DNA of 64,000 nt, taken from Haloplanus vescus (GTDB lineage Archaea; Halobacteriota; Halobacteria; Halobacteriales; Haloferacaceae). A program made the position numbers and the translations under genes. The first letter of the stretch is position 1, and the number at the start of each line of letters is the position of its first letter. The notes beneath the pieces are model-generated. The model saw only the letters and a list, made by a program, of their open reading frames with translations, was not told the DNA's origin and did no database searches. This document shows, piece after piece, positions 6,886 through 47,242 of this stretch. The stretch spans positions 374,286 to 438,285 of the forward strand of contig NZ_FNQT01000002.1 in assembly GCF_900107665.1 (NCBI RefSeq). The letters run 5' to 3'.

Positions 6886-6932
6886 GCGGGTGTCGAAGCC
6901 GCGACGCTCGGTAGTTAAAGTGTAGAAAGTAG

Positions 6933-7007
6933 TGGGTTGGGGCAGATTTGAACTGCCGGCCTCCTCCATGTCAAGGAGGTGTCATAACCAGACTAGACCA
7001 CCAACCC
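6933..7007 (-). tRNA. tRNA-Val (GAC)
   Basis: Reading the minus strand, the acceptor stem GGGTTGG pairs with CCAACCC, followed by discriminator A. The anticodon loop TTGACAT between CTCC/GGAG pairs gives anticodon GAC (valine). The T-arm GGCAG-TTCAAAT-CTGCC is intact. Length is 75 nt, with no intron and no encoded CCA. Unlike tRNA-Gly and tRNA-Glu in this window, no copy of its 3' end follows it. Confidence 0.95.
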
Positions 7008-44567: not shown

Positions 44568-44638
44568 GCGCTGGTAGTGTAGTGGTATCACGTGACCTTG
44601 CCATGGTCACAACCTGGGTTCAAATCCCAGCCAGCGCA
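44568..44638 (+). tRNA. tRNA-Gly (GCC)
   Basis: 71 nt. Acceptor stem GCGCTGG pairs with CCAGCGC, with discriminator A. The anticodon loop TTGCCAT within TGACC/GGTCA gives GCC. The T-arm CTGGG-TTCAAAT-CCCAG is intact. No intron and no encoded CCA. The segment from 44617 to beyond the 3' end is repeated at 44760. Confidence 0.95.
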
Positions 44639-44667
44639 CTTTTCCCGAACTCAACGAACGAGGAGCG
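44617..44667 (+). repeat. Direct repeat copy 1: tRNA-Gly 3' end plus trailer
   Basis: Begins in the T-arm (GGTTCAAATCCCAG), runs through the acceptor 3' strand, and continues 29 bases into the trailer. It matches 44760-44809 with two substitutions and one T indel over about 51 bases. Confidence 0.9.
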
Positions 44668-44702
44668 GAGCGACGAGTGAGCTGTGAGGGAAAATCGCTC
44701 CT

Positions 44703-44712
44703 GATTTGAACC
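44703..44712 (-). repeat. Inverted copy of the T-arm inside the Gly cassette
   Basis: GATTTGAACC is the exact reverse complement of GGTTCAAATC at 44617-44626 and 44760-44769. Nested inside is ACCAG (44715-44719) complementary to CTGGT (44752-44756), so 44703-44769 can fold as one hairpin. Confidence 0.8.
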
Positions 44713-44759
44713 CTACCAGTCGCGCACAGCGACCGGAGGGAGCGAGCACGTCTGGTTTC

Positions 44760-44809
44760 GGTTCAAATCCCAGCCAGCGCACTTTCCCGAATTCAACGAC
44801 CGAGGAGCG
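44760..44809 (+). repeat. Direct repeat copy 2: partial tRNA-Gly 3' end
   Basis: Second copy, 143 bases after the first, of the T-arm 3' half, acceptor strand and trailer. It lacks the D-arm and anticodon, so it cannot be a tRNA. Confidence 0.9.
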
Positions 44810-44858
44810 ATTCGTTCCGTGACGAACCCTTTTCACCCTGACTCCCTCACCGCAAGCC

Positions 44859-45398
44859 ATGCATCGACGCGCGTTGCTCGCCGCGACGGGAACCTGTCTC
44901 GCGGGACTCGCTGGCTGTGGTGCCGACGGCTCCACCGAGACGTCGACCTCCACCCCGACCTCCACCTCCACGCAGACGACGACCACGCCGCCACCGACGT
45001 CCACGCCCCCCGAACAGCGCTACCGGCCGCAGTTGCTCGACGTGGGACTCGTCTCGACGTGGGCGGAGGCTGGTGACCTCTCGGAGAATCGGGTCGAACA
45101 GATTCGACGGGGCCGGCCCGCCGTCATCGCCTTCCGCTATCGAATGCGTATCCCCCAGGGGACGGTCAACCTGAAGGAGGGCATCGACATCATCGCCGAC
45201 GACGAACTGGTGATGCGACGGAACAACGAAGTCGACCGAACCGTCGACACCGCTGGTCTCCACACGTGGGAGACTGGCATCACCATCGAGACGGCGGACT
45301 GGCCGACCGGGCAGGTGACCGCGTCCGTCGCCATCGGCGAACTGCAGTTACACCGCACCTCAGACCCGATGGCGACGACGTTCGAAGTCACCGAGTAG
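44859..45398 (+). CDS. Tat-exported lipoprotein, unknown function
   Basis: 179 residues. The N-terminus MHRRALLAATGTCLAGLAGC has a twin-Arg start and lipobox (Cys20), followed by a Ser/Thr/Pro-rich linker (about 24-50) probably glycosylated or disordered, and a single beta-rich domain (FRYRMRIPQGTVNLKEG, ETGITIETADWPTGQV). No enzyme motif. CCCTTTTCACC (44826-44836) is about 28 bases before the ATG. It sits directly behind the tRNA-Gly repeat cassette. Confidence 0.8.
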   Translation: MHRRALLAATGTCLAGLAGCGADGSTETSTSTPTSTSTQTTTTPPPTSTPPEQRYRPQLLDVGLVSTWAEAGDLSENRVEQIRRGRPAVIAFRYRMRIPQGTVNLKEGIDIIADDELVMRRNNEVDRTVDTAGLHTWETGITIETADWPTGQVTASVAIGELQLHRTSDPMATTFEVTE

Positions 45399-45464
45399 CG
45401 GGCCGATGGCCTTTTCCTCGCTGCGCGCCAACGTATACCAATATGGTCGATTCGTTGGTGCGTC

Positions 45465-46988
45465 GTGACGGGTGAGCTACCGGCCAGCGCCGACGGCCAC
45501 CCCACGCCGCCGCGCCTTGACGGAGTGCTCGACCGGGTAACCGACGGGGTGTTCGGTTTCGACGCCGAGTGGCACGTTACGTTCGTGAACGACTGCGCTC
45601 ACGCCCTCGTCTGTGACGCCACGGGCGAGACGGTCACCGCCGAGGACCTCGTCGGCCGGTCCATCTGGGACGTGCTCCCGGAGCTCCGTGACACCACCTT
45701 CGAGACGGAGTGTCGTGCGGCGATGCGGACCCGAGAGTCGGTGACGTTCGAGACGCACTACGACCCGCTGGATGCGTGGTTCGACGTGCGACTCTATCCC
45801 TCGGAGTCGGGCCTGACCGTCTGGATGCACGAGAGTGCGGAGGACGGCCACGACTCCCGCGAGCGCCGCGAGGCGGTCCTCCGGGAGATGTACGACGTCA
45901 TCGCCGACCGCGACGCCACCTTCGAGGAACAGGTGGACGACCTGCTTCGAATCGGGCAGCGGATTCTCGGAACGGCGTACGGAACGCTCTCTCGCGTGCG
46001 CGGTGACAAGTACACTTTCGAGGTCGTCCGCTCGCCGGGCGATATCGAAGCCGGTGACACCGTCGACCTCTCGGCGACGAACTGCGAGCGTGTCGTGCTC
46101 GACGAGGAGACACTCGTTCTCGCGGACCTCGCGGCTGAGGCACCAGAACTCACGGAGCGGGCGGGCTTCGCCGAGTGGGGAATCAGCTGTTATCTCGGGA
46201 CACCCGTCATCGTCGACGACGAGGTGTACGGCACGTTCTGTTTCTACGATACCGACCCGCGGACGGAGACGTTCTCGGACTGGGAGGTCACGCTCGTCGA
46301 CCTGATGGGCCGGTGGGTGAGCGTCGCGCTCGAACGCGAACTCGTCGAGGAGCAACTCCGCCAGCAGAACGCCCGCCTCGAAGAGTTCGCGACGATGGTC
46401 TCTCACGACCTTCGCAACCCGCTCAACGTCGCGGATGGATGGCTCGACCAAGCTCGCGAAACGGGCGACGCCGAGTCACTCGACAGAGTCGAATCCTCAC
46501 ACGAGCGGATGCGGGAGATAATCGACGACGTGTTGGCGCTCGCGCGGGCGGGACGCGCCGTCGACGACCCCGTCTCGCTCGACCTGGGACGCGTCGCCGC
46601 CGACGCGTGGGAACAGGTCGACACCGACGGTGCGACGCTCACCATGGACCTCGAATCAGATGCTACTGGCGACCCCAAACGCCTCCAGCAACTGTTCGAG
46701 AACCTGTTTCGCAACGCTGTCGACCACGGTTCGGGCGAGGACGGAGCGGCCGGGTTGACGGTGCGAGTCGGCTCGCTCGTGGGCGGATTCTACGTCGAGG
46801 ACGACGGCGTCGGCATCCCGGTCGCCGACCGCGAGCGCATCCTCGAATCCGGCTACACGACGGCGGATGACGGCACCGGACTCGGCTTGGGCCTCGTCGA
46901 CGACATCGCCACCGCCCACGGGTGGTCGGTCGACGTTACGGAGAGCGAGTCGGGTGGCGCGCGCATCGAGTTTACGAACGTCGACTGA
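45465..46988 (+). CDS. Sensor histidine kinase: PAS-GAF-HisKA-HATPase
   Basis: 507-residue soluble kinase. PAS domain at about 18-125 (FGFDAEWHVTFVNDCA), GAF domain at about 140-290 (GTPVIVDDEVYGTFCFYDTD), HisKA with phosphoacceptor His314 in VSHDLRNPLNVADG, and HATPase with N (LFRNAVDHG), G1 (DDGVGIP) and G2 (GTGLGLGLV) boxes. A GTG start at 45465 has AT-rich ACCAATATGG about 25 bases before. Its kinase core is very like that of the REC-PAS3 kinase in this window, so the two are paralogues in that part. No partner regulator is nearby. Confidence 0.92.
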   Translation: MTGELPASADGHPTPPRLDGVLDRVTDGVFGFDAEWHVTFVNDCAHALVCDATGETVTAEDLVGRSIWDVLPELRDTTFETECRAAMRTRESVTFETHYDPLDAWFDVRLYPSESGLTVWMHESAEDGHDSRERREAVLREMYDVIADRDATFEEQVDDLLRIGQRILGTAYGTLSRVRGDKYTFEVVRSPGDIEAGDTVDLSATNCERVVLDEETLVLADLAAEAPELTERAGFAEWGISCYLGTPVIVDDEVYGTFCFYDTDPRTETFSDWEVTLVDLMGRWVSVALERELVEEQLRQQNARLEEFATMVSHDLRNPLNVADGWLDQARETGDAESLDRVESSHERMREIIDDVLALARAGRAVDDPVSLDLGRVAADAWEQVDTDGATLTMDLESDATGDPKRLQQLFENLFRNAVDHGSGEDGAAGLTVRVGSLVGGFYVEDDGVGIPVADRERILESGYTTADDGTGLGLGLVDDIATAHGWSVDVTESESGGARIEFTNVD

Positions 46989-47023
46989 TAGCGACGGTCG
47001 ATGGGTCGACCGAAAGAGACGGA

Positions 47024-47033
47024 TTTATCAATA
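47024..47033 (+). promoter_or_regulatory. tRNA-Glu promoter
   Basis: TTTATCAATA is centred about 30 bases before the mature 5' end at 47059. Confidence 0.55.
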
Positions 47034-47058
47034 GCCCTCCCTTGCTCCAATATGCAGC

Positions 47059-47133
47059 GCTCGGTTGGTGTAGTCCGGCCAATCATGTTGGCCTTTCGAG
47101 CCGACGACCAGGGTTCAAATCCCTGACCGAGCA
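47059..47133 (+). tRNA. tRNA-Glu (TTC)
   Basis: 75 nt. Acceptor stem GCTCGGT pairs with ACCGAGC, discriminator A. The anticodon stem TTGGC/GCCGA encloses CTTTCGA, giving anticodon TTC. T-arm CAGGG-TTCAAAT-CCCTG. No intron, no encoded CCA. Its 3' end is duplicated 102 bases downstream. Confidence 0.95.
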
Positions 47134-47140
47134 TGATTCT
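47112..47140 (+). repeat. Direct repeat copy 1: tRNA-Glu 3' end plus trailer
   Basis: 29 bases from the T-arm (GGTTCAAATCCCTG) through the acceptor end and 7 trailer bases. Identical to 47214-47242. Confidence 0.92.
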
Positions 47141-47177
47141 GACCGAACGGAGTGAGTGACGGAGCGCGCACAGGAGA

Positions 47178-47187
47178 GGGATTTGAA
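47178..47187 (-). repeat. Inverted copy of the T-arm inside the Glu cassette
   Basis: GGGATTTGAA is the exact reverse complement of TTCAAATCCC at 47114-47123 and 47216-47225. It encloses the small hairpin GCGGC-TTC-GCCGC (47195-47207), so 47178-47225 can fold into one nested stem. Confidence 0.85.
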
Positions 47188-47213
47188 TCAGAGAGCGGCT
47201 TCGCCGCGACCGT

Positions 47214-47242
47214 GGTTCAAATCCCTGACCGAGCATGATTCT
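47214..47242 (+). repeat. Direct repeat copy 2: partial tRNA-Glu 3' end
   Basis: Exact 29-base second copy at 102 bases period. It carries only the T-arm 3' half, acceptor strand and trailer, so it is not a tRNA. Confidence 0.92.

Follow-up and report, generated by a model that had tools for sequence, protein, structure and literature searches.

The DNA considered here is a 64-kb window of the 2.78-Mb draft genome of Haloplanus vescus (labelled G000), in which two tRNA genes are each followed directly by a short unit built from copies of the tRNA's own 3' end. ARAGORN and Rfam RF00005 placed three tRNAs in the window, tRNA-Gly (GCC), tRNA-Glu (TTC) and tRNA-Val (GAC) (Table 1). A direct repeat of 29 nucleotides (nt) with 97% identity was present at tRNA-Gly (44617-44645 versus 44760-44788; spacing, 143) and one of 36 nt with 94% identity at tRNA-Glu (47105-47140 versus 47207-47242; spacing, 102). 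Each unit also contains an inverted copy of the T arm, exact over 11 nt (44616-44626 with 44703-44713 and 47114-47124 with 47177-47187), and a nested inner hairpin. A first-pass annotation of this DNA had described this same order of parts behind both tRNAs at these positions, and the repeats and spacings held up when re-measured; the inverted copy is exact, as it had said, with a length of 11 nt instead of 10. It had further reported that tRNA-Val lacks a unit, and no copy was detected when the flank of this tRNA was compared with its own 3' end. We also agree that the units are too short for an integrase, being 80 to 150 nt long and without coding capacity.

The order within a unit is S-L1-S'-L2-S, where S denotes nt 53 to 73 of the host tRNA and S' the inverted copy of that segment. 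L1 sits in a trailer hairpin (HP1) and L2 inside the S'-S hairpin, and neither loop is derived from the tRNA. In all units inspected, S starts exactly at G53, the first base before the T loop, whatever the tRNA type. Identity beyond nt 73 amounted to only 0 or 1 nt in 63 of 87 units, indicating that the copy usually ends at nt 73. The T-loop motif GTTCRAAT is nearly universal in the unit arms. A second class of unit was also present, in which nt 61 to 73 are copied behind GGGACT and accompanied by an inverted acceptor and TAGTCCC. The copies often have a 1-base insertion in the middle of the T loop (GTTCACAAT, GTTCAATAT and GTTCAGAAT), at the same spot and repeated independently, as seen at Asp (L005), Ala-GGC (L138), Gly (L087 and L088), Phe of genome G007 and Thr-CGT (L118 and L216).

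Both kinds of copy are specific for the host tRNA. In five full tRNA sets, those of G000 and four relatives, a tRNA's own nt 53 to 73 recurred downstream with at least 18 of 21 matches at 81 of 218 tRNAs, compared with 1 of 1744 after the tRNAs were swapped. The T-arm part of S' fitted its own tRNA at 10.36 of 13 positions versus 9.30 (standard deviation [sd], 0.09; 2000 permutations), and this match extended to unusual T loops, such as GTTCAAC at Lys and GTTCGATT at His. An ungapped test detected no own-specific inverted acceptor in S', whereas in a gapped test the acceptor plus trailer of S' was own-specific (11.35 versus 8.80; sd, 0.25; 0 of 5000 permutations). Because only the gapped test succeeded, S' appears to be a full-length inversion that has decayed, its T-arm part being strong and its acceptor and trailer part degraded; pairing of the stem is ~95% over nt 54 to 61 and fades by nt 65. 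The swapped-tRNA and permutation controls rule out chance repeats, and the host-specific arms rule out the copying of one whole unit onto another tRNA. The proposal in the first-pass annotation that each unit was rebuilt from its own tRNA is, therefore, strongly supported by the swap control and both permutation tests of S'.

Table 1. tRNA genes and unit parts in the window (G labels other than G000 denote further genomes)
Feature	Position	Strand	Basis
tRNA-Val (GAC)	6932..7007	-	ARAGORN + Rfam RF00005
tRNA-Gly (GCC), intact host gene	44568..44638	+	ARAGORN + Rfam RF00005, 66.7 bits
Gly S1, tRNA nt 53-73 (T-loop to discriminator), copied segment	44618..44638	+	direct repeat; G53 boundary
Gly HP1/L1, trailer hairpin TTTTCCC...GGGAAAA, loop GAGGAGCGGAGCGACGAG	44640..44694	+	folding; inverted trailer own-specific across units
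Gly S', inverted T-arm GATTTGAACCC (reverse complement of 44616-44626)	44703..44713	+	100% over 11 nt
Gly L2, nested hairpin CTACCAGTCGCGCACAGCGACCGGAGGGAGCGAGCACGTCTGGTTTCG	44714..44760	+	loop type matches G392 and G335 at tRNA-Gly
Gly S2, direct copy of tRNA-Gly nt 53-73	44761..44781	+	21/21
Gly copied trailer and beginning of a further HP1 remnant	44782..44809	+	aligns with flank of unit-less relative G080
tRNA-Glu (TTC), intact host gene	47059..47133	+	ARAGORN + Rfam RF00005
Glu S1, tRNA-Glu nt 53-73	47113..47133	+	direct repeat
Glu HP1/L1 and linker, with GAACGGAGTGAGTGACGGAGCG	47134..47176	+	orthologous in G392
Glu S', inverted T-arm AGGGATTTGAA	47177..47187	+	100% complementary to 47114-47124
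Glu L2 TCAGAGAGCGGCTTCGCCGCGACCGTG	47188..47214	+	near-identical L2 at Glu, Arg-TCT and Glu-CTC tRNAs of relatives
Glu S2, tRNA-Glu nt 53-73 (47215-47235) and 7-nt trailer TGATTCT	47215..47242	+	direct repeat

The distribution of the units was read from sequence stretches around tRNAs. All 42 tRNA flanks of G000 were read, and units were also found at Lys-CTT, Gly-TCC, Arg-CCT, Val-TAC (two units), Asp (an array), two Met tRNAs, Ser-TGA, His and others, ruling out that only two tRNAs are involved. The recurrence of nt 53 to 73 was detected at 11/42, 19/44, 12/46, 18/44 and 21/42 tRNAs in the five fully sampled genomes. Overall, copies were counted at about 14 of 42 tRNAs in G000 and at 12 to 22 of 42 to 46 tRNAs in four relatives. 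A strict pattern, GATTTGAA-N15-45-GTTCAAATC, which detects only units with the commonest T loop, was present in 322 of 391 Halobacteria genomes and 78 of 86 genera, the class name for these counts having been taken from the named pattern matches and kinship tables; a reversed control pattern gave no match. Thirty matches were inspected, and 27 of these sit 31 to 281 nt behind a same-strand tRNA, the rest being two arrays without an adjacent tRNA and one match inside a gene. Among named haloarchaeal genomes, 61 of 69 matches lie behind a tRNA, and carriers of units include Haloferax, Halorubrum, Haloarcula, Halobacterium, Natrinema and Natronococcus. Outside the class, 7 of 312 genomes of the phylum had single matches (counted by hand from the table); the 11 named non-haloarchaeal matches contained no unit, and most corresponded to a tRNA's own anticodon arm; a wider distribution was ruled out on these grounds. 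The units are a class-wide repeat system in Halobacteria, present behind as many as half of the tRNA genes, a scale understated by the first-pass annotation, which had known only the units of 143 and 102 bases behind Gly and Glu. Two small genomes, G007 and G286 (2.1 and 2.3 Mb), have some of the densest arrays, and unit load does not track genome size.

Comparison of occupied with empty sites in relatives revealed presence and absence of units at the same tRNA between sister species. G392 and G240 carry a unit at tRNA-Leu-GAG, whereas the site is empty in G000 and G335; the downstream flank is shared. The duplication here extends 6 nt beyond the tRNA, and the comparison is one between different species. 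Most same-genus genomes read have at least one unit at tRNA-Gly, with two stacked in G392; G080 has a remnant only, and in G290 other DNA abuts the tRNA. In G335, nt 30 to 71 of tRNA-Gly (anticodon to 3' end) are repeated ~48 kb away (L081 and L092; C1:937670-985642). This insertion is provirus-like, with a site starting at the anticodon, and the hairpin array is intact, now lying behind the distal tRNA-Gly copy 48 kb away. An origin of the units as provirus remnants was ruled out, as the insertion at this same tRNA uses a different site and is without hairpins.

Units form tandem arrays of up to five copies. Of 48 arrays, 13 have adjacent units with an identical L2. Among the copies in an array, the proximal one was better in 15 cases and worse in 3 (sign test, ~0.008, computed by hand). 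The two loops vary separately: at Ser-TGA, HP1 is kept and L2 is different in G392, while at Leu-CAA, L2 is kept and HP1 is different. Identical loops are also found at different tRNAs of G007 (a 38-nt loop at Pro and Ser, a 32-nt loop at two Leu tRNAs and a 26-nt loop at Arg, Lys and Leu), with arms matched to the host in each case. In the same genome, the third unit of Lys-TTT resembles the first unit of Arg-CCG nearly throughout, and the two differ at bases pairing with the host tRNA. At Ser-TGA, L2 of Haloferax denitrificans (L394:7020-7400) is reversed between the inverted T arms relative to that of Haloferax prahovense (L367:1-700) at the same locus, the number of units and HP1 differing too. 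This reversal is probably the product of recombination between the inverted arms.

The nature of the folded molecule was assessed from the loops and stems. The density of GAGCGNAGCGA was 2.24 per kb within 60 nt downstream of tRNAs versus 0.01 to 0.02 per kb elsewhere, a 100- to 200-fold difference that rules out a generic haloarchaeal repeat. The motif had a strand orientation of 31:3 within 150 nt of tRNAs, some of the loci in these counts having been chosen by pattern. GNRA loops are favoured in RNA. In the units, C-GNA-G triloops accounted for 112 of 178 three-base apical loops versus 12 of 54 in the control. The tetraloops were GNYA in 17 cases versus GNRA in 4; the survey of apical loops was repeated on 267 units. 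Loops of the GNA and GNNA types closed by G-C pairs form exceptionally stable, nuclease-resistant DNA mini-hairpins (PMC4686876). Mismatches in the stems, with nt 53 omitted, consisted of 33 G.T and 34 A.C, indicating no wobble preference overall, and G.U was likewise not preferred over A.C in the HP1 stems. As the loops are GNA/GNYA rather than GNRA and wobble pairs are not preferred, these data suggest that the molecule that folds is single-stranded DNA. The Glu hairpin (47171-47226) had a z score of -5.7 when folded as DNA, and the Glu unit one of -4.3 when folded as RNA. Trailer stems covary within the genus, yet without an excess of G.U. In Rfam 15, the tRNA was the sole match for the unit loci, no described RNA family being found for the units. 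A near-copy of L2 of the Gly unit (GCGCGCAGCGACCGGAGGGAGCGAGCACG) was also observed in a duplicated, tRNA-free region of G000 (C4:158799 and 54793; L002 and L003), and loop-like sequences thus exist outside the tRNA arrays too.

The most likely explanation is that cassettes insert at the 3' ends of tRNA genes and that nt 53 to 73 are duplicated in the process. We interpret the units as non-coding DNA hairpin cassettes of haloarchaeal chromosomes that insert directly behind tRNA genes with a 21-bp duplication and whose stems are templated by the host, and we give this interpretation a probability of about 0.5. Any model has to accommodate host-matched S on both sides, a host-matched S', travelling loops, a boundary fixed at nt 53 and mostly at nt 73, strand-oriented DNA-type hairpins, and gain and loss of whole units. 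An L1-S'-L2 cassette would enter at the tRNA 3' end through an enzyme supplied in trans, and the 21 bp of nt 53 to 73 would be duplicated, the tRNA remaining whole throughout and its former 3' end becoming the distal copy. Such insertion with target duplication would explain the host-matched S on both sides, the travelling loops and the fixed nt 53/73 boundaries. An additional step would be required to make S' match, and copying by fold-back or template switching across the S'-S hairpin is the natural candidate. The host tRNA would serve as the template on which the stems are made or corrected, S' being matched by strand-on-strand copying or correction in folded single-stranded DNA, and fold-back or template switching at the stable GNA mini-hairpins could be the route. 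Arms with the T-loop GTTCRAAT could, in addition, serve as short homologies for exchange or inversion of loops among loci. A more specific version, which we put forward only tentatively, is that of mobile single-stranded DNA hairpin cassettes specific to Halobacteria, driven by an enzyme and inserted like CRISPR spacers, with the tRNA body as leader, nt 53 to 73 as repeat, and stems rewritten from the host tRNA. Of the three options in the first-pass annotation, a mobile unit targeting tRNA 3' ends fits best with the sister-species differences, shared loops and tandem arrays. A by-product of recombination, its second option, is retained as a possible part of the mechanism in view of the independent loop exchange and the one inverted loop, while an RNA hairpin acting on 3' processing is disfavoured by the absence of an overall G.U bias and by the DNA-type apical loops.

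Several observations weigh against cassette insertion. The empty and occupied sites were all compared between species, and no insertion was caught in near-identical strains. Identity extends 3 to 15 nt into the trailer in 16 of 87 units, including the Gly and Glu units of the window and that of Leu-GAG, and the duplication may, hence, be a local tandem duplication that does not end at nt 73. The left ends of the elements vary. In the tightest part of the stem (nt 54 to 61), G.T mismatches outnumber A.C (16 versus 7), so some RNA constraint may act on this part. On the tRNA strand, a TTC/TTT triloop is present in some L2 types. There is also no candidate enzyme. Cas1 was present in 9 of 21 unit-rich versus 13 of 33 pattern-free genomes and was absent from G392 and G335, both of which are unit rich, while the Y1 transposase (PF01797) was present in 16 of 21 versus 23 of 33, with none in G000; both were ruled out as drivers for this lack of association.

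An alternative that we consider unlikely is that the units are non-autonomous integrase elements, moved as minimal attP-to-attP circles by tyrosine recombinases acting at the T loop, with S1 and S2 as attL and attR; possibly, in an integron-like variant, the folded S'-L2-S hairpin is itself the recombination site. The span of the copy from G53 and the T loop to the usual tRNA end resembles tRNA-targeting integration, the units form tandem arrays with less-decayed proximal copies, the S'-L2-S hairpins resemble folded recombination sites, and one L2 is inverted between inverted T loops. However, an element carrying a tRNA end would generate a chimeric tRNA on moving to another tRNA, yet the shared loops sit with host-matched S1, S' and S2. 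Furthermore, the provirus-like insertion in the same tRNA-Gly has a longer, anticodon-based site without HP1/L2 ends, the integron consensus GTTRRRY is unmet by GTTCRAA, and none of 29 pattern matches in IMG/VR was a unit, which also ruled out virus-borne units. Local mutation alone seems similarly improbable. Repeated fold-back or template switching at replication forks would then have built S-L1-S'-L2-S in place as an inverted triplication, with no mobile cassette, and loops would have spread by gene conversion through T-loop homology. This would agree with an S' that is the reverse complement of all of S, including acceptor and trailer, with the duplicated trailer of some units, with the stable DNA mini-hairpin loops and with the independent swapping of HP1 and L2. 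It is difficult to reconcile with a start fixed at G53 at every tRNA and an end mostly fixed at nt 73, with confinement to one archaeal class, with nearly whole units common to Lys and Arg tRNAs and with loops not derivable from tRNA or flanks.

A functional RNA appears very unlikely. Transcripts running past the tRNA would fold into HP1 and S'-L2-S, with S2 keeping S' off the tRNA, or the structure would help tRNA 3' processing or termination. The strand orientation of the loops (31 versus 3), the 95% intact pairing over nt 54 to 61, the covarying trailer stems within the genus and the RNA fold of the Glu unit are consistent with such a role. Against it stand the absence of an overall preference for G.U over A.C in the stems or in HP1, the GNA/GNYA loops instead of GNRA, the many tRNAs of the same genome without units, the differences between orthologues, the T-rich trailer that often lies ahead of the unit and the lack of an Rfam match for the units.

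A repeat system spread across an entire archaeal class, at as many as half of the tRNA genes, has apparently been overlooked as "tRNA remnants." The units offer a testable case of elements with target-templated stems, bear on why integrating DNA favours tRNA 3' ends and preserve traces of recombination by fold-back and through short homologies in polyploid archaea. They also confound annotation, namely searches for attR, calls of provirus ends and tRNA finders. The arrays may mislead tRNA annotation; in Halorubrum ezzemoulense (L402), ARAGORN merges tRNA-Ser and the array into one tRNA with a huge intron. Dense clusters of tRNA-like genes in viral or plasmid style were also observed in two relatives (G335:C1:1776562-1780649, G335:C3:89218-91261 and G240:C1:401628-403110).

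The nearest published observation concerns Haloferax gibbonsii LR2-5, in which 11 partial tRNAs ("tRNA remnants") were reported, several of them directly adjacent to a full copy (PMC7921747). The main text of that paper only counts the remnants and does not describe hairpins, an inverted copy, arrays, families of loops or a distribution. No description of the units was found in the open-licence literature, and an earlier description elsewhere is possible; the hairpin cassettes appear not to have been described previously as a system. This agrees with the first-pass annotation, which knew of no such structure: within that literature, no already named haloarchaeal element matched.

Each of the closest known kinds fails at least one tested defining feature. 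Integron attC arrays are similar in consisting of imperfect hairpin sites of ~60 to 140 nt arrayed at a fixed primary site. The attC core is GTTRRRY / RYYYAAC, and the unit core GTTCRAA fails this consensus; the units also have no cassette genes, and their arms are derived from the host tRNA. Tyrosine-recombinase elements that target tRNAs likewise duplicate the tRNA 3' end and leave the tRNA whole (PMC8371274), whereas the units have no integrase, are 80 to 150 nt long, contain an inner inverted copy, are host matched everywhere and form arrays. Integration by casposon or CRISPR Cas1 also duplicates a fixed target segment beside a tRNA 3' end (PMC6614799), and the arrays of units are CRISPR-like in their repeat-spacer-like layout, but the units show no association with Cas1 and their "spacers," instead of being foreign sequence, are hairpins that recur and contain inverted copies of the repeat. 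The PATE, MITE and SMR elements of Haloquadratum are, like the units, short, non-coding, palindromic and haloarchaeal (PMC3119063), and bacterial REP elements can be grouped with them as short palindromic non-coding repeats. PATE and REP elements derived from IS200/IS605 make no target duplication, in contrast to the 21-nt duplication flanking the units. All of these elements have fixed palindromes of their own and are not linked to tRNAs, whereas the units take their outer stems from the host tRNA and are flanked by a 21-bp duplication of it.

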